Shown here: positions 2,079-24,620 of the stretch, piece by piece | Layout: each line of letters begins with the position of its first letter | Numbering within the stretch: position 1 is the first letter of the stretch | Origin: a virus | Virus record (IMG/VR): IMGVR_UViG_3300025165_000032 | Location: 1 to 24,620 of that record | Length of the DNA: 24,620 nt | Direction: 5' to 3' (one strand) | Made by a program: the position numbers and the translations under genes | Notes under the pieces: generated by a model | The model's input: the letters and a program-made list of their open reading frames with translations, nothing else | Database searches by the model: none | What the model was told of the DNA's origin: nothing

Positions 2079-3391
2079 GGGATCGGCGTCGTCCAGTAAG
2101 TCGCGGGGGAGAGGTCAAGCGTCATCTCGACGAACGGGTAGCCCGTGTCGAGATCGGCGACGAGCGGTCGCCACGTCTCCGCGATCCCCTCGACGAAGTA
2201 GACCTCCGCGCTGAAGCCGCCGCCGCCAGGATGCGAGCGCGTCACCGTGATCTGATCGGAGATATCAACCTGCGTGACGAACTCCCACAGGTCAGCTGCA
2301 CGAATATCATCGGGGTGCAGCGCCTTGAACGTGATCTGGTCGATGCGTGTCTGCGGGCTCGCGTAGTTGTCGACGATGTATTGGGCGAAGGCGAGACACT
2401 CCTGCTCACCGGTGTTGCCAGTCGTTATGCCGTCCTTCGTGATGAGGTTCTCGGCTGCCCAGGAACGTACGCCGTGATTGCCCGGAGCTCCGATGGATGC
2501 GAGATCCGTGACGACCTGATTCACGCGGTTTGCCTGCGCGATCGACTGCGGGTAGCACATGGCCGCGTTGCGGATCAGTCGCCTCGAACGAGTGCAAGCG
2601 AAGGGCGGTCGGAGCTGAATATTCCCGACGCCCGCCGTCCACTGGTTGAAGTCCCAGTGTGTCGCCGTGGCCGCAGTCGCTACCGGATCGAAGCGAGCGT
2701 TGCGCCCGTGGAAACACGCCACGCCGTACTTGTCGATGAAGAACTGTCCAATCCCAGGAAGTTCGGCGTCGGCTGCGTCGCGGATGACGGCCAGGAGCGA
2801 CTCGCCGGGAGAATAGACCGTCTCGAGTAGGTTGACGTTCCCGGTGAAGATGGAGGAGAGGCCCGCGGGCCAACCTGCATCGGCGAGCGCCTGGTTGATC
2901 CGGATCTGCGGACCGGTGACCGCCGTGTCCTCGTAGAAGACGTAGCCCTCCGACTGCGCGGGCGGCGTATCGCCGGCCAACCCAGGCGCGAGCTCGAAGT
3001 TCGCGAAGTAGTCGAGTGCATCGACCGCCTCGATGACCACCGTCCCTTTGACCGCCGAGGGATCGAGGTCGTAGTGATGATCGTCCACCGATCCCCGGAA
3101 GCGAGGATGCCAGACGTCCGCCACAGGATCTCGAACAGCGAAGGCGAACGGCCGCGAGATCCAGTCCACCGATGTCGGGTCGACGTCGCCGTCGCGATCG
3201 TTGAAGGTGACCGTGCAGGTGCCCGTGTCTTGCCGCTCGAACTCGTCCTGCCGACCCCTGCGGATCTGGACCACCGGCACGCGCAGGTTTCCGAGGTTGT
3301 CTAGGCGCGTCCACGTCGGCGCGACGGTGAAGAGCGTGTCCGAGGGTGCGACTGAGACGCCTTCCCAGTTGAAGACGTTGAGGACTCCCAA
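2075..3391 (-). CDS. Minor tail protein, distal tail/baseplate hub-like
   Basis: A 438-residue protein starting at TTG 3391, nine nucleotides after the tape-measure stop region. Siphovirus gene order places distal tail and hub proteins straight after the tape measure, and this is the first large gene there. The N-terminal 150 residues are beta-rich with segments typical of hub proteins (VPVVQIRRGRQDEFERQDTG, TCTVTFNDRDGDVDP, RPFAFAVRDP, GTVVIEAVDALDYFA). The middle contains ESLLAVIRDAADAELPGIGQ and FFIDKYGVACFHGR, a pattern seen in hub proteins that share a gp27/VgrG-like fold. It would form part of the tail tip that contacts the host. Assignment is by position plus pattern; no catalytic motif is seen. 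Confidence 0.75.
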   Translation of the reverse strand: MGVLNVFNWEGVSVAPSDTLFTVAPTWTRLDNLGNLRVPVVQIRRGRQDEFERQDTGTCTVTFNDRDGDVDPTSVDWISRPFAFAVRDPVADVWHPRFRGSVDDHHYDLDPSAVKGTVVIEAVDALDYFANFELAPGLAGDTPPAQSEGYVFYEDTAVTGPQIRINQALADAGWPAGLSSIFTGNVNLLETVYSPGESLLAVIRDAADAELPGIGQFFIDKYGVACFHGRNARFDPVATAATATHWDFNQWTAGVGNIQLRPPFACTRSRRLIRNAAMCYPQSIAQANRVNQVVTDLASIGAPGNHGVRSWAAENLITKDGITTGNTGEQECLAFAQYIVDNYASPQTRIDQITFKALHPDDIRAADLWEFVTQVDISDQITVTRSHPGGGGFSAEVYFVEGIAETWRPLVADLDTGYPFVEMTLDLSPATYWTTPIP

Positions 3392-3399
3392 GGCTCAGC

Positions 3400-6300
3400 T
3401 CAGATCCCCGGTCGCACTCCGCGACGAGACGCGCTGCCCCGCCCTCGCTGCTTCTGCTGCTGACGCGTGACGACCGCTGTAAACTCTTTGCCGTCCACGA
3501 CGAGAGTCGCGTTGAGGTCGATGGCGATCGGCGCACCGGCGCCTACGCCGGCTGGCAACGCGAGGCCGAAGGCACTAACCCCGCGGCCGGGCACCGTGCC
3601 GCCAGCACCGAACTGCGAGAACGACTGACGAAGCTCCTTGATTTGGGCAGGCGTCAGGCCGGTGACGTTCTCGATCAGCTTCCCGAAGCCGCCCTTCTTG
3701 AACTTCGTCTGCGGCCCCTTCTGTGCGCCACCCTCGAGCGCACCCGAGATCGAGTTGAACGCCTGCAGGATCGCGGCGCGCACGTCGCGACCAACCTTCC
3801 CAAAGGCTCCCGAGAGCACCTTGCCGATCTGCGCGAGCTGTGTGCGCGTCTTATCGGTGTCGAGGAACGTGCCCTTCACCTGCTCGCGCAGGTTGCCGAG
3901 ACGCTTCGAGAGCGCTCCGACACCGGGCACCCGTTGTTCTCCCGTGGCAGTCAAACCGAGCGCCTCGAACTGCGCCCCCTGCCGTCGCGTCCGTCGCTGC
4001 TCCGCGATCTGTCTCTGGATGTCCGCGCGCTGCTGCTCGACCTGGAACAGCTGCCGTTCGAGGTCGGTCGTGCGGCCGACCGCCTTGATGCGATCGCGGA
4101 TCGCTGCTTCCTGGTCGCGAAGAGCTCGGAGATCGTCGCGCAGACTCTTGATCGCCTGCGCTTGTTCGAGGTCGAGACTCAGAGCGTCGACGAGCGCCTC
4201 GAATGCCTTGCGCGCCTTGGCGGCTGCCTTCTTCGCTTTGTCCGCCGTATTCGTCACGACTCGGCTTGATGTCTCGACAGCCTTCCCTGCGGACGCCGCA
4301 ACGGTCTGAACAGCCCGCGCCTGCTGCTCTACGGCTTGCCCGGATGCGCGCGCTGCTCCTTCTTCCGGTCGCCTCGGACCACCCGGCGCATTGACCACCG
4401 TGTCGATGACGATCTCGATGCGGCGACCCTCGATCTTGTCAATGGCTGTCTGGATGCGCCTAGCAGTCGCTTCGGCGCCTGCGCCCATCTCATCGAGCTG
4501 CGCCTGAAGCGCGTTCTTCGCATCGCGGAACTTCGTACCGAAGATGCTCGGCAGGTGCGTGAACGGCTCCACGACGTCGAGTGCAGCACGGATCGCGTCG
4601 CGTTTCATCGCCTCCCAAGCACGATCCAGCGCGCCAGCGATGGAACGGCCGAGGCTTGCGAACACTCCGGCGACCTTCTGCGCGAACCCGGCTACAGCAT
4701 TGAGCGCCGCCTGTATTCCGAGCACGGTAACGACGAAGCGCGCGATCCGGCCGAGCCTTCCGAAGACACGCGCAACAAGGCGGGTGAGCGGTGCCAGCGC
4801 GCGAGCCGCGATAGCAGGCAGCCGCGAGAGGCCCGCGATGAGCACGCCGCCCAGACGCGGGAAGGCGCTGAGCATCCCGACACCGATGCGCAACACGAGG
4901 TCTGAACCGAGACGGCGTAGCGGCGCCACCACCTTGGCGGCGAGACCAAGGATGCGCGCTCGGAACACCGTCGCTGCGACCGCCAGCGTGAGGTCCCAGT
5001 TGCGAATCCAGAATGCCGGATCGGCGAGCGTTACGAACGCGGTGACAATGGCAGCGGCGAGCGCCGGCCCGAGTCGCTTGCCGAGCTCCTCGAAGTCGAT
5101 CTCTCCCACAGCCGCGTTGACGCGCTCAGCCATCTCCTTCGCGGCCGGAACCGCGACCTTGACAGCGTCCACGAAGGCATCCCCGATCCGCTCACCGACG
5201 ATCGAGAAGTCGACTTCCTCAAGCCGCTTCTGCAATCCGTCCGCGATCCCGCGTGCTTCAGCAAACACCTTGTCGAAGTCGACTGCGCCGATCGCTCGCC
5301 CAAGAAGATCCTGCGCGCCATCGGCAGCGTCCTCAACGCCCTCCCACACGACGGCGAGCTTGGTCCGGATCGTCTTCGCCTCGGAGAGCTCGTCGAGGAA
5401 GTCCTGCACGACACCGAGGGCAGCATTCGCACCCTTGGCGATTACGTTCGCGAGCGGGGAGAAGATCGCGCCGAGCTGGATCCCGATTGCCTGCAGTGAG
5501 GCCATCGTCTGCTTGAACCGAAACGCCTCGCCCTTCGAGACCGCATCGAAGGCGTGAGCAAGAGCGCCTGTGGAGTCCTTCATCCCGTCGAAGACCTCGC
5601 GCGTCGAATCCGCGTTCTCTCCAAGAAGTGAAAGCAACCCGCGAAGTGCCCGGATGTTCGGGAACGCTTCGGCCATCGCCGCGGTGTTGTCGCCGAAGCT
5701 CGTTTTCAGCGTCTCGAGGATGGCGAGCAAGCCCTTCTCCTTGAGCTCCTTGCGCAGCCCCTCTGCGCTGAGTCCCACTGAGGCCAGCGCATCGGCCTGC
5801 TTCGGCGTGACCTTCAGCAGCGACGAGAACGTGGCCTGCAACTGGATCGCAGCCGTCTCGGCCGTAGTTCCGAGTCGTGTCTGAGCCGCGAGCGCTGCGC
5901 CAACCTCCTCGAAGCGCACTCCAAGCGTTGCGGCGAGAGTGGCTACGGTGCCTATGACGGGAGCGAACGCCTCAGCCTCCCCCTTGCCGAACTTCACCGT
6001 GTTCACGAGTACGTCGGTCGCGCGCGCGGCGGTGATGACCGCAGGCCCGTAAGCGTTCAGCGCGGAGGTCACGGCGTCCGCCACCTGCTGCGTCTGTCCG
6101 AGACCCGCTGCCGCAGCCTGCGCCGACAGCTTAACCACCTGCATCTGCTTGTCGACCGCGATTCCCGCGGATGCGACGAAGTAGAGCGCTTCGCCGAGTT
6201 CCTGCGGCCCCTTGGCTACCTGCGGCCCGAGTCGCAGGATCTCCTTGGAAAAGCCCGCGACCGACTCTCGCGCCCCGCCGGCCAGACCGACGACCCTGTC

Positions 6301-8618: not shown

Positions 8619-9211
8619 ACGAGCAGCGTCCTCCTTCCAAGACCCTTGAGCAGGAAGTTGATCTGCGGGTCGTTGCGGATGATGTAGGCGGCCGTTTCGC
8701 CGTTGAGCGCGAACCCCATCGGCATCGAGCGCTTGCGCTGGATCAACTGCTCGGCGATGAGTCCTGCCGCCTCGATGATCTGAAACGGAATGGAGGGCCA
8801 GCCGAAGATGCCCGACACTTCGACCGCTCCGGGGTATCGCGTTGGGAAACGGTGAGTGCCAGCGGGGCGCACGTTGATCTTCGTGTACGGCTGACTGTCG
8901 AGCGAAGCGTTCAGCGGCTCGAGCACGTAGTCCGTCGCCGCCCAGGTGATCTCGAAGGTGCCGTCGCCGTCCTCGTCCGTCTTGAGAGTGGTCAGCGACA
9001 CGAGATCGTTAATCGTGAGCGCCTTGGGATCGAGCGCCGTGTAGAGCCGCTCGACGTCCTCCTGATCCTGGCCGAACACGCGCCCGAGCTCCAAGTCGAG
9101 ACCTGCGCTCGCAGCAAGACACGCGTTCTCCGCGTCGTCGTCGAGGAAGGTGGTGCCTGCCGCCGCCAGTGTCTTCTTGAGTTCATCTGGATCCACGTAC
9201 AGCGAAGTCAC
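8615..9211 (-). CDS. Head-tail connector protein (gp6-like adaptor)
   Basis: A 198-residue protein from GTG 9211 (GTGA overlap with the GT2-TPR gene). Features of adaptor-type connectors: an N-terminal helical part (YVDPDELKKTLAAAGTTFLD, DAENACLAASAGLDLELGRV), a central strand-rich insertion describing a T-L-K-T-D-x-D-G-D-G motif (about 74-84), and a C-terminal helix (IEAAGLIAEQLIQRKRSMPM) followed by a short hydrophobic tail. Such proteins form a ring under the portal that joins it to the tail. The gene opens the connector-tail block. It is separated from the other head genes by the accessory island (9212-18359). Confidence 0.75.
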   Translation of the reverse strand: MTSLYVDPDELKKTLAAAGTTFLDDDAENACLAASAGLDLELGRVFGQDQEDVERLYTALDPKALTINDLVSLTTLKTDEDGDGTFEITWAATDYVLEPLNASLDSQPYTKINVRPAGTHRFPTRYPGAVEVSGIFGWPSIPFQIIEAAGLIAEQLIQRKRSMPMGFALNGETAAYIIRNDPQINFLLKGLGRRTLLV

Positions 9212-10269
9212 ACGAGCACCTCCTCTCGCTCACCGATCAACTCGTCGATCCACGTCTGGATGCCCTCGGGGATCTCCGTCGCCCGAAGATCGGTGAGGAT
9301 GCAGCGACCTTCCCACTCATCCCCGGCGCGCATCTCAGCAATGCCGAGTTCCATCGGAATCCCCCAGGCGTAAGTCGCGTGCTCGACGAAGAGACGGTCA
9401 TCGGGACGAGGGATCGCTGCCGCCTGACGCGCGAACATGAGCGCTGCGTCGTTCCAGCCGTTGACCCGGCACTGACGCGCGGCCACGTACAGCGGCTCGG
9501 CGCGCGTCGGACGTTCTTGCCATGCCTCAATGCAGGCGCCGATCGCGCCCTGCGGTTCGCGCTCGCACATGAGTCGAGCACGCCTGAGCTTGGCGACGAA
9601 GCGCTCCTGGTCGTAGCCTCCGAGCAGGATGCGTCGGCCGTACTCGCGCAGAGCGTCTGATGTTCGGCCCAGGTCGTCATAGGTCTGCGCGAGGTAGAAG
9701 CTCGAGCGCGCGTCGAGCGGATTCTTCTCCAGCTCGCGTTCCAGCAGCCGCGCGTCCTCTTCGAGCTTCCCCGGCCGCCAGCCGCCCGGTCGACGATCCT
9801 CGATCCGCAGACCACAGACGTCTTCGCTGTAGCGGCCGTCGCCGTCCTCGCAGGCGAGATAGGAATGGGCGACGCCGCGGTAGCTCCAGCGGCGCTTGCC
9901 CGAGACGAGCACCGGCAACACGTACTCCCACGATCCCTCGACGGTCGCGTGGTAGCACTCAGCCTCGCGTGGCTCGGGAGGTAGCTCGCCCTTGATCGTC
10001 ATATCCGCGTCGAGCATCAGGAACCAGTCGGCCTTACCGTGCGCGAGCCTTAGAAGCTCGCTGCGCGCCTGCCCGATCGACTCGAACGCGATGTCGTGGA
10101 ACTCGCCGGGGACGCCTGCGAGAGTCTCCTCCGTCACCTCGCGCGTCTTGTCGGTGGAGCCGGTGTCGCAGATGACCCAGTGGTCGATGCCGAGTGCGAG
10201 CGCTGAGCGCAGCGTCTCGAGAAGCCACTGCTCCTCGTCGCGAACGATCATTGCGAGGCAGATGCTCAT
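9208..10269 (-). CDS. Family 2 glycosyltransferase with TPR-like C-terminus
   Basis: A 353-residue enzyme from ATG 10269, in an ATGA overlap with the upstream fibre-like gene. Residues 1-160 are a GT-A/GT2 domain: SICLAMIVRDEEQWLLETLR, the nucleotide-sugar motif ICDTGSTDKT (34-42), and the metal-binding DAD in FLMLDADMTI (residues 87-89). A later H-S-Y-L segment (about 135-138) is usual in this subfamily. Residues about 165-300 are helical repeats with TPR character (NPLDARSSFYLAQTYDDLGR; an A-x-Y/A pattern repeated). GT2-TPR proteins modify peptides and polysaccharides; the repeats may grip a protein acceptor. The gene follows structural genes and precedes the connector. Its protein substrate is unknown; a virion fibre is a good candidate. 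Confidence 0.85.
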   Translation of the reverse strand: MSICLAMIVRDEEQWLLETLRSALALGIDHWVICDTGSTDKTREVTEETLAGVPGEFHDIAFESIGQARSELLRLAHGKADWFLMLDADMTIKGELPPEPREAECYHATVEGSWEYVLPVLVSGKRRWSYRGVAHSYLACEDGDGRYSEDVCGLRIEDRRPGGWRPGKLEEDARLLERELEKNPLDARSSFYLAQTYDDLGRTSDALREYGRRILLGGYDQERFVAKLRRARLMCEREPQGAIGACIEAWQERPTRAEPLYVAARQCRVNGWNDAALMFARQAAAIPRPDDRLFVEHATYAWGIPMELGIAEMRAGDEWEGRCILTDLRATEIPEGIQTWIDELIGEREEVLV

Positions 10270-10916
10270 ATGTCGTAGAAGCCCTGCACTTGGAAAAACT
10301 TGTTGCCTGAGGCAGTCCATGAGGCGTTTGCCAAATCCTTGTTTGCCGTGGCAGTCGCACTCGCGGCGGGGAAATTAAACTTGGCCGGCGCCGTCATGTT
10401 CACACCGTTGTCTTGACCGCGACAGGGGACGACCTGAGCTGTGACGCAAGTAATGGGCAGCGTGCAAGAGACGCTAGTAGCGTTGCTGGTACCGACATTC
10501 GTCGCGATTGTGATCCAGCATTGATTGCCTACTACCGCGAACTTAGCGAGCGTCACGCCTGGATCGGCAGACCATCCAGTTAGCGTCGGCGTGTAGTTGA
10601 AGTATCCCGGATACCCCTGCGGGTTGGCCGCATACGAGTAGGAGTTCGCGCTGATCGCGGCGTTGGCAAGCGTGTAGTCGGTGCCGCCGGTGATCGTGAC
10701 GGTCGTCGTTCCGGCGGCGTGCAACGAAGCCACGACGACGAAATACTTGACCGTCGTTTGGGTGAGTTTAAGCCGTGTGCCTTTCGAGAACACGGCCGTC
10801 CGGTCGCCTGTGACGGTGAAGGTCGTGGCCGAGACATATGTCCAGGTTGCAGCGGTGTCGTCGGTCCAGCCGTCGGTCGCAGCAGCGCTCGCCGCCGGTA
10901 GCTCGAACGCCGACAC
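10266..10916 (-). CDS. Fibre-like minor structural protein
   Basis: A 216-residue protein that I start at GTG 10916, which follows an AGGAG ribosome site 5 nt upstream. The same frame continues upstream only as Arg/Ser-rich shadow of the preceding gene, so a longer version is unlikely. It is beta-rich, with Thr, Ala and aromatic residues (TTFTVTGDRTAVFSKGTRLK, TTVKYFVVVASLHAAGTTTV, ITGGTDYTLANAAISANSYS), a motif series seen in many phage tail-fibre/appendage proteins. The C-terminal half contains GNQCWITIATNVGTSNATSV and a Cys pair region (CTLPITCVTAQVVPC). No enzyme motif. With the collagen-like protein upstream it may form a fibre or head-decoration complex. Confidence 0.7.
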   Translation of the reverse strand: MSAFELPAASAAATDGWTDDTAATWTYVSATTFTVTGDRTAVFSKGTRLKLTQTTVKYFVVVASLHAAGTTTVTITGGTDYTLANAAISANSYSYAANPQGYPGYFNYTPTLTGWSADPGVTLAKFAVVGNQCWITIATNVGTSNATSVSCTLPITCVTAQVVPCRGQDNGVNMTAPAKFNFPAASATATANKDLANASWTASGNKFFQVQGFYDI

Positions 10917-10923
10917 TCTTCTC

Positions 10924-11184
10924 CTACGCGCTCGCGAAGTTCGCTGCCAGGGCTGCCGAGCGCTTGCGCTGCGTCGCCTGCGAGTCCGCGGCCAGGTCGG
11001 CGAACACCGCGACGTTGCGCTGCCCGGAGATCGCCTCTGCCGAGGCATCGGCCAAGACTGCCGCGAGCTCAGCATCGGTGAGCGTGATCCCGTCCTTGTA
11101 CGAGTAAGCATCGACGTCAGTGCCGCCCGCGTTGATGTTCACGAGCTGTGCATCCGAGCCGTTAACGACCGTGTACGTTGCGAT
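10924..11184 (-). CDS. Small structural protein whose start is disrupted by an HNH insertion
   Basis: The frame reads sensibly from codon ATC 11184 (ATYTVVNGSDAQLVNINAGG) to TAG 10924, 86 residues, rich in Ala/Asp (TLTDAELAAVLADASAEAIS, NVAVFADLAADSQATQ). The region before it carries an AGGGAGG Shine-Dalgarno 8 nt from ATC. ATC is a very rare start and may derive from an ATG lost by mutation. A GTG at 11142 that overlaps the HNH stop (GTGA) could rescue a shorter 72-residue form. The opening ATYTV is identical to the first residues of the upstream HNH protein, and a 14-bp DNA repeat underlies this. The function is not recognised; its neighbours suggest a fibre or capsid accessory role. Confidence 0.65.
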   Translation of the reverse strand: MATYTVVNGSDAQLVNINAGGTDVDAYSYKDGITLTDAELAAVLADASAEAISGQRNVAVFADLAADSQATQRKRSAALAANFASA

Positions 11185-11648
11185 GGTAATCGCCTCCCTA
11201 GTTCGGCTCGGAGTCGCTCGTTCTCCTTCTTGAGCCGCTCATTTTCGGCCTTCAGATGAGCGAGGCCATTGCGGTGGTGACAGTCACGACACAGCAAGTC
11301 GCACTTCAGCAATTCTGCGATGAGTGGCTCGTCTGCTCCCGCAACTAGCAGAGCGACAGCCTTATGCTTTTCTTCAGGATCGCGATGGTGCCAGTGAAAA
11401 TCTCGTGATCTTCGCTCATATGCAGCACCGCACCGCTCACATGCCCAGCCACGCCTAAGAGCCTCAGCATCAACTATCGCGAAACCACGATCACGAGCAC
11501 GATCCATCCTCTCAGCCTTCTTTACACGGCAGCTCCATGTGCTCTTCTTGCCGTTGTAGTCCATCGGCTCACGGTGAAGCTTGCAAAGCGGACGGTCATC
11601 AATCATCTCGTCCGTTTTGCCACATCGCTCTACCGTGTACGTTGCCAA
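11139..11648 (-). CDS. HNH homing-type endonuclease
   Basis: A 169-residue protein from TTG 11648, which has a superb AAAGGAGGAAGACC Shine-Dalgarno. After an N-terminal ATYTV it contains MDDRPLC-like IDDRPLCKLHREPMDYNGKK and CERCGA (about 70-75), then the HNH core FHWHHRDPEEKHKAV (about 84-98) and CDLLCRDCHHRNG (114-126), i.e. two Cys-x-x-Cys zinc pairs around the catalytic HH. A leucine-zipper-like stretch follows (LKAENERLKKENERLRAEL). The last ~16 residues (PSQRTRSLTARMHSS) are the out-of-frame reading of the start of the next gene, so the protein appears to have lost its own stop. It sits between the collagen fibre and the small structural gene. Its spread mechanism (free-standing homing endonuclease) is inference. 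Confidence 0.85.
   Translation of the reverse strand: MATYTVERCGKTDEMIDDRPLCKLHREPMDYNGKKSTWSCRVKKAERMDRARDRGFAIVDAEALRRGWACERCGAAYERRSRDFHWHHRDPEEKHKAVALLVAGADEPLIAELLKCDLLCRDCHHRNGLAHLKAENERLKKENERLRAELGRRLPSQRTRSLTARMHSS
11168..11181 (-). repeat. 14-bp direct repeat, copy 2 (target-gene side)
   Basis: Identical to 11632-11645. Here it opens the small structural gene, preceded by ATC instead of TTG. Counting the flanking bases, 18 of 20 positions match between copies. The pair looks like a duplication created when the HNH gene entered the start of this gene. Confidence 0.9.
11632..11645 (-). repeat. 14-bp direct repeat, copy 1 (HNH side)
   Basis: GCAACGTACACGGT on the minus strand, codons 2-6 of the HNH gene (ATYTV). 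The same 14 bp recurs at 11168-11181, 464 bp away, in the same orientation. Upstream of both copies lie a Shine-Dalgarno and a shared ACC, so the repeated unit is a gene-start region. Confidence 0.9.
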
Positions 11649-11661
11649 GGTCTTCCTCCTT

Positions 11662-14460
<2,799 letters not shown>

Positions 14461-14461
14461 A

Positions 14462-14860
14462 TCACCTTGTCACTTCTGGAGAGACCACGAACTTGCCCAT
14501 CAGCAGTCGCCGCACCTGCCCGCCGGCCGGCACCATCTCGAGGTCGTAGCGCCAGCGACGATCGAACGGCGTGGCAGGAAGCGCGGCCGTCACCGTGGCT
14601 GACATCTCAAGCAGGATCTCGCCGTCCGCGCCGCCGAGGGTGATGTCTCCCTCAGCGGTTACATCCTCGGCCGTCGCCAGCGTGACGATGACGAGGGAGG
14701 ACTCGATGCGCTTGCGTACCTTCATGCGCGCCGTGTAGCCCGTGTTGTCGATCGGGACGTCCAGCTCGTCTTTCCAGATGAGCAGCTTCGCGAAGTACGC
14801 CCCTTGCGTCACATCGAGATCGAAGACGGCAGGGGTTCCGGCGAGCTCGACGGTCGACAC
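14462..14860 (-). CDS. Small beta-rich structural protein beside the fibre
   Basis: A 132-residue protein from GTG 14860, sharing one base with the WbqC-like stop. Its opening ([20 protein letters not shown]) followed by [20 protein letters not shown] matches a recurring phage domain of the type 'F-x-V-x-Q-G-A-x-F-x-x-x-x-x-W-K-D...D-x-T-G-Y-T-A-R-M'. This domain is found in small proteins next to tail-fibre/baseplate genes and is reminiscent of the N-terminal domain of BppU-like proteins. The C-terminus is also strand-like ([20 protein letters not shown]). It directly precedes the collagen-like fibre gene, so it may anchor the fibre to the particle. No enzymatic residues are seen. Confidence 0.65.
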
Positions 14861-15513
14861 TAGGCCGCCACCTCCAGACGTTGCTCGACGAGAGCGAGGG
14901 CACAGGGGTTGTCCCCCTGATGCGACCAGTACGCAACCTCGATGCCCATCTCATCGAAAGGCTCCTCCGACAGGTACTTCTTGCCGCTTGGCCCGCTGAG
15001 GTACACATCCCCACCAAGCTCCGCGACCATCGAGGCGAGCTGCCACGAGATCGGCTTAAGTGCTTCCTTGTCGTCAGAGACGACGGGAACGGTATGGCCA
15101 CCGGCGAGGTGAGACTGGAACGCCCAGAGAATGTCCGGCGCTAGTTCTCTGAGAACGATGTCGAGGATCGCGACGTTCAGCCCCACGAGCAACTTGTACG
15201 GACGCAGGATCTCGCGACAGACCGCGGCCGTCGCATCACCCGGCCAGGCGTCGACCAGCCCGCGGATGAGCGGCTCGCGCCAGTCCTTCGCAGGCTCGCC
15301 GATGCGTACGCGGTTGATCGGCTTGAACGCGCAGTGTCGCTCAACCGGGACGGTGAGCCAGCGGCCGTCGGGCAACTTGTTCCTGTTCGTCCAGCCGTTC
15401 TTCGTGAACTGCACCTCGTCGAGCAGGATCACGGCGTCAGACGCTTTGATCTTCGAGACGATAGAACCCGCGTAGAGGAAGTTCGGCTGGTGCGCAGTCA
15501 CGACGAACGTCAT
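14860..15513 (-). CDS. WbqC-like family protein
   Basis: A 217-residue protein from ATG 15513 (ATGA overlap with the second methyltransferase). The first 60 residues carry the family signature: TAHQPNFLYAGSIVSKIKAS, then VILLDEVQFTKNGWTNRNKL and WLTVPVE. HQPN, the D-E-V-Q-F segment and N-R-N-K/R are the conserved positions of WbqC-like proteins, which occur in bacterial O-antigen and capsule gene clusters and whose reaction is poorly defined. The C-terminus includes GGDVYLSGPSGKKYL, also typical. It lies in a tight operon with glycosyltransferase and methyltransferase genes, which supports a part in making or attaching a modified sugar. The family assignment is confident; the biochemical function is not. 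Confidence 0.88.
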   Translation of the reverse strand: MTFVVTAHQPNFLYAGSIVSKIKASDAVILLDEVQFTKNGWTNRNKLPDGRWLTVPVERHCAFKPINRVRIGEPAKDWREPLIRGLVDAWPGDATAAVCREILRPYKLLVGLNVAILDIVLRELAPDILWAFQSHLAGGHTVPVVSDDKEALKPISWQLASMVAELGGDVYLSGPSGKKYLSEEPFDEMGIEVAYWSHQGDNPCALALVEQRLEVAA

Positions 15514-16073
15514 CTCCGCAGCACCACCAGCACGTCGTTTTCGAGATAGCTCGCGTCGAGCGTGAACGTCGAGCAGCCGAGTCGCCGCGCAAGCTCAATC
15601 AGGTCTTCGGGCGCGTAGCGCAGGCAGGTCGCGTCGTGACCGCGGTAGACGCTGAGCGCGAGGGCCTGTCGCGTGTGCTCCGTCCACAACTCCGAGACAC
15701 GCTCCCAGGTTCGCTCCTTCGTCCAGCCATCGGCCAGGTTGAACGGCCCGATTGCCACGACGAAGTCGAACAGATCGTTCGGTAGCGACTCGAGCGGACG
15801 CGCGCGCGGGTGCTCGTGAACCATGCGATCGAGCATCCCCGGTGCCCAGTCGTAGCCGTGGTAGAGAACGGCTGGCGGGAGAAACTCACAGAAGCGCCCG
15901 GAGCCGCAGCCGAAGTCGAGAAGGGTGTCATCCTCGCGTAGCTCGAGGTGGCGCAGCACGGCGAGGAAGCGGCGCGTCTGTCCGCCCTCAGACCAGAGCG
16001 CGGCCTCCCATGAGGCAGGCCGAAGCGCCCGCTCGCTCCATGCGCGCGGGCTGTTCTCGACGAGAGTGGTCAT
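15510..16073 (-). CDS. Class I SAM-dependent methyltransferase (second of pair)
   Basis: A 187-residue enzyme from ATG 16073. Motif I (LLDFGCGSGRF, residues 51-61) binds SAM. It is followed by an acidic end of strand 2 (YHGYDWAPGMLDRM) and motif-IV-like VVAIGPFNLADG (about 103-114). The frame is open further upstream, but that part is a shadow of the small coupled gene and the first methyltransferase. ATG 16073 overlaps the stop of that small gene (ATGA), which fixes the start. No RNA- or DNA-specific target domain is seen (no N/D-PP-Y/W). The core is the small-molecule/sugar type. Its likely job is methylation of a sugar or fibre-linked glycan; substrate unknown. Confidence 0.82.
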   Translation of the reverse strand: MTTLVENSPRAWSERALRPASWEAALWSEGGQTRRFLAVLRHLELREDDTLLDFGCGSGRFCEFLPPAVLYHGYDWAPGMLDRMVHEHPRARPLESLPNDLFDFVVAIGPFNLADGWTKERTWERVSELWTEHTRQALALSVYRGHDATCLRYAPEDLIELARRLGCSTFTLDASYLENDVLVVLRR

Positions 16074-16195
16074 CGCTTCCGGGGTCTCTTGATGGACTGT
16101 GGTACGTGACGCTTCTCCCACCGCCGTCGCGCGCGTTCGCGCTGGAGCTGCTCGCGTGAGCGCCACGGCGTCGTAGTGGCAGGGACGCTGCTCAC
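16070..16195 (-). CDS. Overlooked 41-residue basic protein between two methyltransferases
   Basis: An open frame of 41 codons plus stop from GTG 16195 to TGA 16070. Its start overlaps the first methyltransferase stop (GTGA) and its stop overlaps the second methyltransferase start (ATGA), so it fills the 118-nt gap with 4-nt coupling at both ends. The peptide begins SSVPATTTPWRSREQLQRER, is strongly basic in its centre and tail (ARRRWEKRH and KRPRKR), and has two Trp. It is too short for default gene-calling cutoffs. Possible roles are an RNA/DNA-binding or membrane-proximal accessory peptide, or a coupling leader for the second methyltransferase. The coding status is inferred from the double overlap and composition; no homologue is recognised. 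Confidence 0.6.
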   Translation of the reverse strand: MSSVPATTTPWRSREQLQRERARRRWEKRHVPQSIKRPRKR

Positions 16196-16794
16196 CAGGA
16201 ATCACCGCGCCTTCGCGTCTCGCAGATGTGGATGCCCTGGCGCTCGGTGCCGACCATGACCCAGCGGCGGAAGTGGAGCAGACGGTCGTAACGCTTCCAG
16301 ATCTCCGAGACGGACCGGAAGACGCGCACATGCGACTCGGAATCGAAGTTCGGAACGGAGAAGATGAAGCGATGGCCTGGCGGGATCCTGCGCACGAGCT
16401 CGCGGTCCTCCTCGATGTGTTCGAGGACCTCGGTGCAGACGTAGACCGCGTTGCCTGACCGCAACGGGTCCGGCCGCCAGTCCATGAGATCGCAGAGCAG
16501 CCACTCTGGTGGCGGTGCATCCGCGTGCCGCGGCTTTACGTAACTCGCCGATTCGAGCAACGCCATCTGGCTCCAGTCGATGCCCGTGACGCGGCCGTAG
16601 TGGTTCCGGCGGTACAGAAGCTCGAGGAAACGCCCGGTGCCGCAGCCGAGGTCGACAACCTCCTCGTGCGGGTCGATCATCTGCGCGACCTCGAGATAGG
16701 TCGTGAACCAGGGCGAATCCTCGAGCGGGATCATGGAGGGCGCATCCGCTTCGGTCATCGCGACGTCGTACCAGGCCGCGTCGTAGGTGGTCAC
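16192..16794 (-). CDS. Class I SAM-dependent methyltransferase (first of pair)
   Basis: A 200-residue enzyme from GTG 16794, GTGA-overlapping the glycosyltransferase stop. Motif I is VVDLGCGTGRF (46-56), motif II has GIDWSQMAL (73-81), then LLCDLMDWRPD (99-109), and a motif-IV-like YVCTEVLEHIEED (118-130). This is the pattern of Methyltransf_11/12/23-type enzymes often found in sugar and lipid modification loci. The GC-rich, compact sequence is like its neighbours. It differs from the second methyltransferase in motifs and probably has a different position or substrate. Substrate unknown; a sugar O-methyltransferase is favoured by context (inference). Confidence 0.86.
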   Translation of the reverse strand: MTTYDAAWYDVAMTEADAPSMIPLEDSPWFTTYLEVAQMIDPHEEVVDLGCGTGRFLELLYRRNHYGRVTGIDWSQMALLESASYVKPRHADAPPPEWLLCDLMDWRPDPLRSGNAVYVCTEVLEHIEEDRELVRRIPPGHRFIFSVPNFDSESHVRVFRSVSEIWKRYDRLLHFRRWVMVGTERQGIHICETRRRGDSW

Positions 16795-18359
16795 GCGAAC
16801 ACCCTCACCCCGCGCCGTTCGTACACTTCGCGCGCGTCCGCAACGGACTCTTCCGGATAGTGGTCGCAGAGCTTGTCCCAGTGATCGGCGCGCTCCGGCC
16901 CCACCTGGAAGGCCTCGCGCAGCGTCTTGTACGTGTTCAGCTGCTCCTCGTGCGACTGGAATCCGACCACCTGCATCGGCTGTACGTCGACGTAGTGGAA
17001 CGGGGGGCGGCCGCCGTGCACACGTCCGAGCCGGTTCCAGATCGACGTGTCCACCGCACGCTCTCGATCCTCCTCGGCCGGCCGATAGCGAAGCGGCTCC
17101 AGCAGGTAGGACGGGATCGTGCGCATCCCGTCGCCGCCATCGTAGTGAATGTTGAGCGGAACCGAGCGATCGCCCGACTCGTGGATCATCGTGAACAAGC
17201 GGTGGGCGCCGATCATTCCCTCGGGCGGCATCTGCGCCAGCACGAGCTCGTGATCGATCCAGTTGTCCGTACCCATCGGCATGACGTAGTCGCAGCCGAG
17301 GTACTCGGGGGAGGCTCCGTACTCGATGCCGTCGTTGAACTTGCGCCCGAGCGGCTGGTTCTCCCGCCGCACGGTGGCGAAGCCGAGCATTTCGGCGAAG
17401 TCGAGGTTCTGATCGTCGCCGACCACAACCGCCGTCGCCTCGATGTCGTATTGGGAGAGCGCATCACAGGTGCGCATCAGTTGCCGGAGACACACGCGCG
17501 TCAACTCGAAGCGCCTGTACGCCGGGACGACGAAGCAGAACGTGGCCTTGCGCATCGGAAACGCCGCGAGCTTGGCCCGCCGCTCGTCCTGCATCCGCTC
17601 CGACAGCGCCTGCGCCTGCGCTACCAGTGGCTCGGGATAGCGCTCCCTGAGTGCCGCCCACGGATCAGCGATCTCGTCTCCGACACCGGCAATCGAGGTC
17701 GTCCGCCTGTACGGCGTGAGATTCTGTTCCGACTTGAAGTCGACTCGACAGAGGTTGTGCGGGTCCGTAAAGACCCATTGCGGGCGAACGCCCAGACCCG
17801 CGACCAGCGACCCGTCGATGCCGCGCTGCAGCGTGTCCTTCACCGGACGGAACTTGCTCGGCTCGAGCGCCTTGCGATGAATGATCCAGGGGATGACCCC
17901 GTAGCGCCCGCGCGAATGGCAGTGCTGCATCCGGCCTGTCGGCAGATCCACGAGCGTGATCTCGCGCCCGCTGACGATCTCTGCCTCAAGGCGACCGACT
18001 ACCACCGGCTGCTCGCGCGAGAGCGCGGGAAGCTCTGCCACCGGCAGCGGCAGCCGGTCGAACATGTCGATATGCATCCAGTCGTCCGAACCGATGAGAA
18101 CGACACAGTCCGCCTCCAGCTCGCGGCAGGCGTGCTCCAGGCCGTCGTTGAAACGCCGACCGAGGTAGGCGTTGTCCCGCTCGACCGTGTGAAATCCGAA
18201 CTCCCTGGCGATGTCCAAGTTCTCGTCGTCGGCCACGATGACGCAGGTCGCCTCGATGCCCCGCCCAGCGAGCTCGCCGCAAAGGTGAGCCCGCTGAGCA
18301 AGGGCAAGCCGCGTGACGTCGAAACGACCCCACGCGGGGGAAACGAGGACGATCCTCAC
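16791..18359 (-). CDS. Tandem-duplicated GT-A-like glycosyltransferase
   Basis: A 522-residue protein from GTG 18359, 2 nt after the major capsid stop. It consists of two copies of the same domain, about residues 2-245 and 272-512. Matching segments: VIVADDENLDIAREFGFHTV vs VVVGDDQNLDFAEMLGFATV; AYLGRRFNDGLEHA vs QPLGRKFNDGIEYG; the metal-site-like IGSDDWMHID (89-98) vs MGTDNWIDHE (362-371); and the C-terminal 'WxxLxxxYPExxVAxAxxL' element in both. The fold-like pattern (Rossmann N-terminus, D-D/D-N motif after a hydrophobic strand) is that of GT-A glycosyltransferases, but it does not match classical GT2 motifs closely. Two domains suggest two successive transfers or a pseudo-dimer. It leads the modification operon. 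Donor and acceptor unknown. Confidence 0.8.
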   Translation of the reverse strand: MRIVLVSPAWGRFDVTRLALAQRAHLCGELAGRGIEATCVIVADDENLDIAREFGFHTVERDNAYLGRRFNDGLEHACRELEADCVVLIGSDDWMHIDMFDRLPLPVAELPALSREQPVVVGRLEAEIVSGREITLVDLPTGRMQHCHSRGRYGVIPWIIHRKALEPSKFRPVKDTLQRGIDGSLVAGLGVRPQWVFTDPHNLCRVDFKSEQNLTPYRRTTSIAGVGDEIADPWAALRERYPEPLVAQAQALSERMQDERRAKLAAFPMRKATFCFVVPAYRRFELTRVCLRQLMRTCDALSQYDIEATAVVVGDDQNLDFAEMLGFATVRRENQPLGRKFNDGIEYGASPEYLGCDYVMPMGTDNWIDHELVLAQMPPEGMIGAHRLFTMIHESGDRSVPLNIHYDGGDGMRTIPSYLLEPLRYRPAEEDRERAVDTSIWNRLGRVHGGRPPFHYVDVQPMQVVGFQSHEEQLNTYKTLREAFQVGPERADHWDKLCDHYPEESVADAREVYERRGVRVFA

Positions 18360-21324: not shown

Positions 21325-22745
21325 CCGAAGCTCACCGCTCGGAACTCCTGCTTGGCCGGCGTCGACAATGTCCCCCAAAGCGCGATCGTCACGGCCTCCA
21401 ACGGCGAGATGTCGACGGCGGACGCCTTGCGTGCCCAGGCCCACGCCTCGCCGAGCGAACGCTGCGATGCGCCCTTGATCGCTTGCAGCAACTCGGTCGT
21501 ACCGAGGTGGCGCAGTTTGCGGTCCTGCGTGACGTCGAAGAACATCCCACACGCCTTGGCGAACTCCGTGCCGGTGATGGTCGTCACCTCGACGCTCACG
21601 TCCGTGAAGCCAGGAATCAGCGACGCCGCGGGGCCGCCGCCGTCACAAATCACGGCGAGCGGCTGGTGGCGCTCAACGAGTTCTGCCATGCGATCGACGA
21701 TCCAGCCCGTTCCCGGTCTGTGGTCGATGATCTCAATGTGTCCCTTGCCGTCGGGGCGAAGACCCGCTGCAGCGATGGCTCCGCGCGAGCGGTCACGCTT
21801 CACGGCAAACGCGAGGCACACCGGATCGAGCGCGTGCGAGTTCGTGTCTATGAGGTCGCGCCAGAGATCCAGATCGATGAGCGCCGACTCAAGATCAGTG
21901 CTCGGCCAGTCGCCTACGCCCAGCCGCTCGACCGCGAAGTTGCGCGCGGACATCGAGCGCTGCTCATGCGCGACGTGCTCGGCGGCGATTCGCAACCCCA
22001 TCGCTGGGTTCGCCTCGGCCCACGCAGCCTCGTCAGTGGCTACTTCGTCCGGCACCTCGTCTGGGTGCTCGAAGGGCAGCGACCACTCGAAGTACGCGAG
22101 AGATGGGTCGCCGGCAATGCCACGCTCGCGAACACGTGCCAACACGATGCCGTTCTCGTGCGTCTCCTGGTCGACGGACGAGCCCATGTACCAGACCTGC
22201 GGGTTGTCGCGCGCCGACAGCGTCGGTAGCAGCGCCGAGTGCGCAAAGTCCGGTAGGAACATCGCCTCATCGAGAAGCAGGCAGTCGCAGGAGAAACCGC
22301 GGCCACCGCCGCGCGTACGCGTCCTGTAGCGAATGCGGCAGCCATTCATGAAGTCGAAGCCCTGTTCGCCGTGGGCGTTTCGGACTCTGCGGATCGCGAT
22401 CCCGGCAGTCTCGAGGAGCGGAAGCATCCGGTAGAACGCCTCCAGCGAGGTCGCGTACTCGTGAGCGGAGTGGATCAGGAGCTCTTCGCCGAGCAACACG
22501 ATGCCGGCGAGTTCGCGCGCTTCGAGGATCCCGCCCTTGCCGTTCTGCCGGGGCTCCACGACTCCGATCTCGAAAGCCGCGAATGTGTCGTCGTCGCGGA
22601 GGCCCATCGCGGCGGTGATGACGAGTGACTGATGGTCGTCAAGGATGAGCCCGGCCGATGCGCTCAGTTCGATGACCTCACACCCGAGGGAGCGGACGTA
22701 CTCCGGCACCGACTGAACGCGCGGGGCGGCGATCACGGCTACCAC
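21321..22745 (-). CDS. terL: Terminase large subunit
   Basis: A 474-residue packaging ATPase/nuclease from GTG 22745 (a second GTG at codon 4 is an alternative). ATPase: Walker A variant EPRQNGKGG (64-72), the form common in phages of actinobacteria, and Walker B CLLLDEA (155-161), preceded by a FSCD motif. Nuclease (RNase H-like) acidic residues: D318 in AVKRDRSRG, D368 in AVICDGGG and D445 in AVDISPLEAVTIALWG. The C-terminus is typical for this family and the length is within range. It pumps genome DNA into the prohead through the portal encoded next, and cuts it. The preceding gene, an HNH nuclease overlapping by 7 nt, is often coupled to packaging. No clear small terminase gene is recognised upstream. 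Confidence 0.95.
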   Translation of the reverse strand: MVAVIAAPRVQSVPEYVRSLGCEVIELSASAGLILDDHQSLVITAAMGLRDDDTFAAFEIGVVEPRQNGKGGILEARELAGIVLLGEELLIHSAHEYATSLEAFYRMLPLLETAGIAIRRVRNAHGEQGFDFMNGCRIRYRTRTRGGGRGFSCDCLLLDEAMFLPDFAHSALLPTLSARDNPQVWYMGSSVDQETHENGIVLARVRERGIAGDPSLAYFEWSLPFEHPDEVPDEVATDEAAWAEANPAMGLRIAAEHVAHEQRSMSARNFAVERLGVGDWPSTDLESALIDLDLWRDLIDTNSHALDPVCLAFAVKRDRSRGAIAAAGLRPDGKGHIEIIDHRPGTGWIVDRMAELVERHQPLAVICDGGGPAASLIPGFTDVSVEVTTITGTEFAKACGMFFDVTQDRKLRHLGTTELLQAIKGASQRSLGEAWAWARKASAVDISPLEAVTIALWGTLSTPAKQEFRAVSFG

Positions 22746-22981
22746 GCTCGGGATGTCCTCGCCTTCTCACGACCAGCCGTGGCTCTGTTGCAGTGGCGAT
22801 GTTCTGGTCCCGAGTAGCGCGAGCGATCATCGTCATCGTGGCCGAGATCCCACGGTTCTCCGGACTCAATGAGACGCCCGCAACGAGCACAGCTCACGAG
22901 ACCGGCTGCGACCATCGGCGCCACACCTTGCCGACGACGGTGATGAGGCCGTCCGTACTTCCGGCGGCTCACGATCGGCAC
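22739..22981 (-). CDS. HNH endonuclease next to terminase
   Basis: An 80-residue protein from GTG 22981, directly abutting the preceding stop. The nuclease core is CARCGRLIESGEPWDLGHDD (31-50), followed by RYSGPEHRHCNRATAGREK: a Cys pair, the W-D-L-x-H-x-D catalytic element and the H-x-x-C-N ending of the compact phage HNH family. It closely parallels the C-terminal half of the partial gene at 24000-24620 (shared K/R-Y-G-R-P-H, EPWDL, CNRATAG, TSR-x-W). Compared with that paralogue it has DLGH instead of DLDH and an extra Asp. Small HNH proteins beside TerL are known to support DNA maturation in several long-tailed phages. That role is inferred here from position. Confidence 0.88.
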   Translation of the reverse strand: MPIVSRRKYGRPHHRRRQGVAPMVAAGLVSCARCGRLIESGEPWDLGHDDDDRSRYSGPEHRHCNRATAGREKARTSRAW

Positions 22982-23771: not shown

Positions 23772-24010
23772 GCCGCCACCTCCTCCTCGACGAACCATCG
23801 GCCCGACGCATCCTGCCGCACGCCGGCCTTCCGCAGCTTCAGATGCGCACCTTCGATTCGTGACACCGCCGCTCCCTTCGTGATCGAGAGATGCCGCGCG
23901 ATCGTCATCATGCCGTGCCCGCGCTGCTCGAGCTCGAACGCCTCGAGCTGCTTCGCGGTCAGCACGCGCTCGGCGATGACGCGGACGTTGGACGGAAGAT
24001 CACCACACAC
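23768..24010 (-). CDS. Helix-turn-helix protein, sigma-70 region 4/RinA-like
   Basis: An 80-residue protein from GTG 24010, which overlaps the HNH stop by 11 nt and has GGAAG 7 nt upstream. An ATG at 24091 is open in frame but has no ribosome site and would overlap the conserved HNH core, so I reject it. The core is LTAKQLEAFELEQRGHGMMT followed by IARHLSITKGAAVSRIEGAH and LKLRKAGV: the tri-helical pattern of sigma region 4 / LuxR-like DNA-binding domains ('T-x-x-Q-x-E-A-F/V ... I-A-x-x-L ... S-x-x-A-V-x-x-R/I'). In phages such small proteins near the packaging genes act as late-gene activators or, when longer, as small terminases. Both remain possible. The acidic tail (VEEEVAA) ends at the next gene. 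Confidence 0.7.
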   Translation of the reverse strand: MCGDLPSNVRVIAERVLTAKQLEAFELEQRGHGMMTIARHLSITKGAAVSRIEGAHLKLRKAGVRQDASGRWFVEEEVAA

Positions 24011-24620
24011 GCGAGGTCTTCCGCCTAGAGCGACCCGCCGTAGCTCGGTTACATCTTCGATGTGAGGGGCCAAGGTAGCCCGAGCGATCATCGGTGTGGT
24101 CGAGATCCCAAGGCTCAGCTGGATCTATGGCAAGCCCGCAGCGTGCGCAGCGTGCATCGCCCCTTGCGACCACCCTGGCTACCTCAGCACGCACTCGGGC
24201 ATGCGGCCTCCCGTACTTCACCCGCGCTTTTCCTTCCTCGCGATACCGTTGCTGCCGCTCATCATCAAGTTGCCGGGCGCGGCGCAGAGCTTCCGGAGAC
24301 ATGGAGCCGCGCCCTTGCAAACGCTCGTCACGCTTGATGCGGCGATGTGTCGCGCAGTAGCGATGCCGAGATGTAACCGCCGGCTGGTCGCAGAGATCGC
24401 AGATCCGCGGCCCTCGCTCAAGCCGAAGTTCCGCGTTCCGAGCATTCTGTCGCGTTCTCACTCGCTCGGTATTCTGCGCGTAGTACCGCCGCGATTTGCA
24501 ATTGTCGCACTCGCGACACCGACTCATTCGGCCGCTCGCCTTGGTGTGATCTAGCGGAAACGCCTGAAGCGACAACTCGCGGCGACAGACGGGGCAAACC
24601 TTTGGGGGGGGACGCGTGAG
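24000..24620 (-). CDS. Zinc-finger HNH endonuclease, 5' end cut by window edge
   Basis: The frame is open from the right edge to TGA 24000, at least 206 residues. A TTG at 24575 is not the true start: upstream codons read KVCPVCRREL, the first half of a zinc finger completed downstream, so the gene begins outside the window. Cys-x-x-Cys motifs: CPVC, CRECDNC, CDLC (with H-R-Y-C-A-T-H). Then a long basic linker, and the HNH core CARCGLAIDPAEPWDLDHTD with GPSHRRCNRATAG. The last 70 residues are paralogous to the HNH at 22739-22981. The double zinc-finger front and HNH rear suggest a site-specific nuclease, possibly of homing or packaging type. A run of eight C residues near the edge makes the reading frame there slightly uncertain. 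Confidence 0.82.
   Translation of the reverse strand, partial: LTRPPPKVCPVCRRELSLQAFPLDHTKASGRMSRCRECDNCKSRRYYAQNTERVRTRQNARNAELRLERGPRICDLCDQPAVTSRHRYCATHRRIKRDERLQGRGSMSPEALRRARQLDDERQQRYREEGKARVKYGRPHARVRAEVARVVARGDARCARCGLAIDPAEPWDLDHTDDRSGYLGPSHRRCNRATAGRSRRKTSRVW

Follow-up and report, generated by a model that had tools for sequence, protein, structure and literature searches.

A free-standing HNH endonuclease gene of the homing type has probably been inserted by imperfect recombination at the start of a small, conserved tail-module gene, which would leave that gene with poor initiation at an AUC codon. The DNA analysed here (the window) is a virus record from IMG/VR, 24,620 bp long, in which the structural genes lie on the - strand; the features discussed are collected in Table 1. 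If this reading is right, no intron is needed for a selfish nuclease gene to invade a conserved structural gene: it can use its victim's start and leave a weaker second one behind, which would help to explain the persistence of free-standing nuclease genes in tightly packed late operons.

Table 1. Features of the HNH insertion and its surroundings in the window.
Feature	Position	Strand	Basis or remark
Collagen-like tail fibre gene	11662..14460	-	Pfam Collagen E 3.7e-85, many PHROG tail-fibre matches
Fibre gene TAA	11662-11664	-	Abuts the ribosome site ahead of copy 1
Shine-Dalgarno AAAAGGAGG and spacer before TTG 11648	11649..11663	-	-11.6 kcal/mol; L006 layout alike (AGAAAGGAGAGCAC-GTG)
TTG start of the HNH ORF, at the putative ancestral start position of the small gene	11646..11648	-	L006 homologue starts at the homologous codon
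HNH endonuclease ORF, 169 aa	11139..11648	-	PHROG 2255 E 2.9e-11, PHROG 3106 E 1.3e-10; GC3 0.547
Repeat copy 1 GCAACGTACACGGT	11632..11645	-	HNH ORF codons 2-6
Inter-copy stretch, 450 bp, foreign composition (GC 0.55)	11182..11631	-	Composition; L004, L005 and L006 records without HNH match
Second Shine-Dalgarno (GGGAGG region) within the HNH 3' end	11193..11200	-	-11.7 kcal/mol, 8 nt before ATC 11184
ATC at the expected start codon of the displaced gene	11182..11184	-	Sequence layout
Repeat copy 2 GCAACGTACACGGT	11168..11181	-	Small gene codons 2-6
GTG sharing bases with the HNH stop (GTGA); unlikely alternative as a coupled start	11140..11142	-	-3.3 kcal/mol; GCG in L004, L006
Displaced small gene, 86 aa from ATC	10924..11184	-	L004-L006 at 63-66% identity; purifying selection

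The repeat and the hybrid HNH reading frame

The first-pass annotation had placed a 14-bp direct repeat at codons 2-6 of the HNH gene and again at the start of the next gene, 464 bp apart, and the repeat was confirmed as exact at both places. Copy 1 makes up codons 2-5 of the HNH ORF and two bases of codon 6, directly after the TAA of the fibre gene, in the context AAAAGGAGGAAGACC-TTG-GCAACGTACACGGT-AGAGCG...; copy 2 forms the 5' end of the next, small gene in the context CTAGGGAGGCGATTACC-ATC-GCAACGTACACGGT-CGTTAACGGC..., with AGGGAGGCGATTACC-ATC preceding it. Both copies translate as A-T-Y-T-V, are identical over the 14 bp and are dissimilar just outside, the identity stopping sharply on both sides. 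A search for GCAACGTACACGGT allowing up to two mismatches returned 2 occurrences (0.11 expected). First-order Markov sequences of the same composition gave a mean of 0.7 exact 14-mer direct-repeat pairs within 1 kb, with at least one pair in 40% of trials, and the window itself holds a second such pair at 9850/8975. The repeat by itself is within chance; what is unusual is its location at two gene starts in the same register. Because the repeat alone is not rare, the insertion reading leans on other evidence, namely the relatives, the GC3 of the HNH ORF and a cysteine missing from its zinc knuckle. The final codons of the fibre gene (ATC ACG TAC ACG CGA ACG TAA, 11665-11690) also contain a 9-mer, ACGTACACG, common to both repeat copies, perhaps by chance.

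The HNH ORF is a stand-alone reading frame, matched by PHROG 2255 and 3106 and by Pfam HNH at E 0.95 only, and its GC3 (0.547) is below that of the small gene (0.837) and of most neighbours (0.77-0.87). Its N-terminus, MATYTV, is most likely encoded by target-gene sequence, and its C-terminal 14 residues, SQRTRSLTARMHSS, come from the small gene's 5' end translated in a different frame. The HNH frame reaches copy 2 out of register (464 = 3 x 154 + 2) and ends, as had been noted at first pass, on codons that belong to the target start, its stop TGA (11141-11139) overlapping GTG 11142 as GTGA.

The N-terminus Y-T-V-E-R-C...LCKLH matches a zinc knuckle common in actinophage HNHs, C-x-[VI]-E-x-C...LCxxH, with Tyr4 at the position of the first knuckle Cys and its codon, TAC, inside copy 1. 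A phage collection was searched with the knuckle consensus lacking this first Cys, and 12 of the 285 records matched were read; the Cys was present in 12/12, as it was at the same place in 4/4 further motif matches in L080 and L148. Since a Tyr takes the place of the family Cys and its codon falls within copy 1, the first codons of the HNH most likely derive from the target gene, and the left joint may lie inside a likely HNH-target microhomology, ACGGT (TAC-ACG-GT in the target against TGC-ACG-GT-like knuckle codons in the HNH). In the catalytic motif C-x-N-C-H the Asn is replaced by Asp, a residue seen there in 0/144 relatives (Asn in 127/144), so that the nuclease activity of this HNH, judged from its residues, is uncertain. 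Viral and phage matches to the protein are ~30-46% identical over part of its length, and viral contigs and 396 genomes of the phylum of G001 yielded no close relative, or one short match at 45%; for this reason the native ends of the HNH are those that we infer.

Relatives without the nuclease and the start of the displaced gene

Scans with the small protein recovered L003, which belongs to the same virus species, and three more distant ones, L004, L005 and L006 (L007 equals L006 in the compared region). The small gene is conserved in phages having collagen-like fibres, the proteins of L004-L006 being 63-66% identical to that of the window. No HNH match was found in the L004, L005 and L006 records, each of which has a single copy of the repeat region; this absence of the insertion from relatives that carry the target, as is usual for homing endonuclease genes, is seen on records that are diverged (63-66%) and may be fragments. 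The small gene of L006 begins AAAGGAGAGCAC-GTG-GTC-AAC-TAC-ACA-GTC-GTC-AAC-GGG (MVNYTVVNG), which aligns exactly with TTG 11648, and joining the flanks of the window element gives SD-TTG-GCA-ACG-TAC-ACG-GTC-GTT-AAC-GGC (MATYTVVNG), with the start codon in the same position as in L006. The Shine-Dalgarno sequence after the fibre gene is accordingly placed where it can be read as the ancestral ribosome site of the small gene, now serving the HNH. These comparisons bear out the first-pass view that the nuclease gene lies immediately behind the start of an 'xATYTVVNG' gene and uses its start and ribosome site, together with the prediction that relatives lacking the HNH would have a single start with a ribosome site (SD-GTG-VNYTVVNG in L006). 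L004 and L005 have N-terminal extensions, and the start of the small gene differs among relatives.

The exact empty-site string was not found in IMG/VR, nor was a sister genome with an empty site, and among contigs holding the fibre end none was near-identical to the window (best 71%). The small protein had no match in the phage collection; a fragment of it occurs in L021, an Actinomycetota MAG; this is a hint of the host phylum, and the virus is probably one of actinobacteria. The L003 contig (IMGVR_UViG_3300025160_000054; 8,060 bp), which matches 7.47 kb of the window at 99.6% identity, breaks off at window position 11171, inside copy 2. A 14-bp repeat should not break an assembly, whereas a different upstream neighbour would, so this contig end is suggestive, and only suggestive, of some genomes that differ upstream of 11171. 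The junction is carried by one record only, and the ATC may be an assembly or base error.

The frame of the small gene closes upstream at TGA 11241, and the only possible starts before copy 2 are ATT 11190 and ATC 11184. The sequence AGGGAGG, 8 nt before the ATC, is predicted to form an anti-Shine-Dalgarno duplex as strong as that of the HNH site and stronger than that of the L006 site (-8.7 kcal/mol); -11.6 kcal/mol is reached by 0.9% of random positions. Judged by its layout, copy 2 resembles a gene start with every element in place, the start codon being a single base away from ATG. The suggestion that the target lost its ribosome site on insertion is thus contradicted, the site at copy 2 being as strong as that at copy 1 (-11.7 and -11.6 kcal/mol). 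Of the weakened or coupled start that had also been proposed, the first part is favoured, ATC being an abnormal start codon at which the displaced gene would initiate weakly, and the second is unlikely. Codons of the small gene ahead of GTG 11142 are, on comparison of the window with L006 (pS 0.86, pN 0.08), under purifying selection, which makes this GTG a poor and unlikely start; it also has no Shine-Dalgarno sequence and its counterpart is GCG in L004 and L006.

The same observations bear on the explanation that the repeat arose by chance, the HNH gene merely lying between two genes and the small gene starting at GTG 11142, coupled through GTGA. Chance 14-mer pairs within 1 kb do arise and GTGA overlaps are common as coupled starts, but the selection on the codons before the GTG, the GCG in two relatives and the missing Shine-Dalgarno sequence speak against it, as do the L006 start exactly where copy 1 predicts it and the zinc Cys missing inside copy 1, and we consider it very unlikely. 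Under the preferred reading, an insertion, the two start regions, with equal ribosome sites and differing most clearly in the start codon, would offer a natural test of AUC initiation. Modelled with AlphaFold, the small protein reached a mean pLDDT of 49, too low to be usable.

Origin of the duplicated start

On sequence comparison, the ancestral small gene would have started at copy 1, directly after the fibre gene, as SD-TTG-GCAACGTACACGGT followed by CGTTAACGG, and the empty-site allele would have had AGGAGGAAGACCTTGGCAACGTACACGGT joined directly to CGTTAACGGCTCGG. Entry of the free-standing HNH gene at codons 2-6 would have produced an ORF that runs from the ancestral start on the target's original signal and draws its first six and last 14 residues from the target, each set in a different frame, and codons 2-6 of the target would stand a second time at the head of the displaced gene. 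The left joint would have formed at the ACGGT microhomology; on the right side, recombination may have restored the target codons, with a full ribosome site ahead of them and ATC replacing the start codon. Translation of the displaced gene would now begin inefficiently at AUC (or AUU 11190) and depend on the strong Shine-Dalgarno sequence in the HNH 3' end.

Two variants of this explanation were weighed for how the codons came to be duplicated. The first, to which we give somewhat less than an even chance and which differs from the best explanation only in specifying the origin of the duplication, is one-sided homing from a donor whose own small gene followed immediately after the HNH (in the order HNH stop, AGGGAGG, start, GCAACG...). 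Recombination would have proceeded by homology on the right and through an illegitimate joint on the left, leaving the recipient's start in front, and the ATC would be a decayed ATG. Such a donor arrangement would explain the ribosome site at copy 2, where a full start layout (CTAGGGAGG-8 nt-ATC) matches a real start in strength and its ATC is one base off ATG. The copies of a gene overlap around another HNH gene, in L042, share only ~80% identity, as would be expected of a donor and a recipient allele, and the mobile ORFs of fungal mitochondria present a mirror image with gene 3' ends (PMC3630166). Weighing against such homing, no donor was found, and the copies are identical over 14 bp and unlike just outside, as a staggered cut would also leave them.

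The second variant, a simple duplication of 14 target bp through a staggered cut or slippage, appears rather unlikely. It accounts for the exact identity and its sharp ends on both sides; the ribosome site at copy 2 would then be HNH 3' sequence, present by chance or through later selection, and a site of this strength would occur there by chance in ~1% of cases. The left joint, moreover, coincides with the likely HNH-target microhomology, and part of the repeat may not be duplicated target. The site duplication on entry that was claimed at first pass holds in that codons 2-6 occur twice; a simple 14-bp target-site duplication is not established, and recombination with a donor fits at least as well.

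A broader proposal, which we regard as unlikely, is that the HNH cassette travels with a replacement start region, taking the target's signal and giving the target another ribosome site and another set of first codons in return; the target would survive, though with its initiation reduced to AUC. Such a cassette would be the 5'-end bacteriophage counterpart of the fungal mitochondrial hybrids, and L042 would be a second case. At that locus (L042:1-700) a ~47-bp overlap of two genes is present on both sides of the HNH gene at ~80% identity, the upstream gene retaining its C-terminus (LWIRRKPNQVWRKPR and stop) and the downstream gene its start (MDSKKTKSGLEKAP).

Flanking repeats as a general habit of the HNH family were rejected, direct repeats of at least 14 bp flanking 3/138 HNH loci against 1.6% of control stretches, with no enrichment. 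The long flanking repeats of this survey were tRNA-like genes in L120 and a promoter-like repeat in L111 (1684-2290), where an exact 37-bp sequence (TTGACA...TATAAT) occurs twice, once ahead of a tRNA-HNH unit and once immediately behind it.

Restoration of the small gene by a self-splicing intron or an intein is extremely improbable. Nuclease-bearing introns do occur in structural genes of actinobacterial phages (PMC3706429), but there is no Rfam intron match and the ORF fills the element. Splice pairs that would restore the gene end exon 1 and the element on the same base (or on G and C at the repeat edge); as the last base of exon 1 is the last base of the element in a direct repeat, the U...G rule of group I introns cannot be satisfied at any of them. 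An intein was rejected on the 464-bp period, which puts the element and the HNH stop out of frame. An insertion sequence was also rejected, the 450 bp holding the HNH ORF only, with no transposase, and the termini AGAGCGATG... and ...GATTACCATC not being mutual inverted repeats.

Known mobile genes and other genes of the late operon

Free-standing homing endonuclease genes of phages include the T4 mob/seg genes and the HNHs of mycobacteriophage Cluster J, and imprecise junctions have been reported for phage HNH genes, 35 bp having been lost at the Omega gene 51 insertion (PMC2988022, PMC3706429). The window ORF resembles these in being small and intron-less, in its variable presence among relatives, in lying in or beside a conserved gene, and in the overlap at its stop, starts and stops of such genes being sometimes overlapping or coupled. 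It differs in beginning with the ribosome site and first codons of its target, and in the double presence of target codons 2-6. Like T4 mobA in gene 60 and Aeh1 mobE in nrdA (PMC2988022), it is a nuclease gene that disturbs the reading of the phage gene entered; those insertions split the coding region, whereas one at codons 2-6 keeps the whole remaining frame.

In the mobile ORF gene hybrids of fungal mitochondria (Allomyces atp6; Glomus atp6, atp9, cox2 and nad3; PMC3630166) an endonuclease ORF is inserted in a gene, as is proposed for the window, part of the gene is duplicated on either side and the ORF is sometimes in phase. The hybrids duplicate the C-terminal end, in longer, divergent copies, whereas the duplication in the window would be of the target 5' end, over 14 identical bp only, with no donor allele found. 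The displaced copy in the window, unlike theirs, has no normal start codon, and the nucleases belong to different families, LAGLIDADG for Glomus atp6 against HNH here.

The late operon with the Gly-x-Thr collagen-like fibre also encodes a GT2/TPR glycosyltransferase, a WbqC-family protein, two SAM methyltransferases and a 522-aa protein without a Pfam match (the set, with the fibre, occupies 9211-10320, 11662-14460, 14860-15513, 15513-16079, 16192-16794 and 16791-18359). Together these genes could be a phage-borne set that glycosylates the Thr-rich fibre. In L006 a methyltransferase-like gene lies between the fibre and small genes. Near the terminase gene, two ORFs (22739-22981 and 24000-24575) have no Pfam match at E 0.001 and have in common an HNH-like ending, [RG]Y[SL]GP[ES]HR[HR]CNRATAGR; they are apparently paralogous packaging-type HNH genes. 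A strain 99.6% identical to the window over 3112-3703 (L032:1-594) diverges completely beyond 3703, a mosaic boundary at the end of a tape-measure-like gene.
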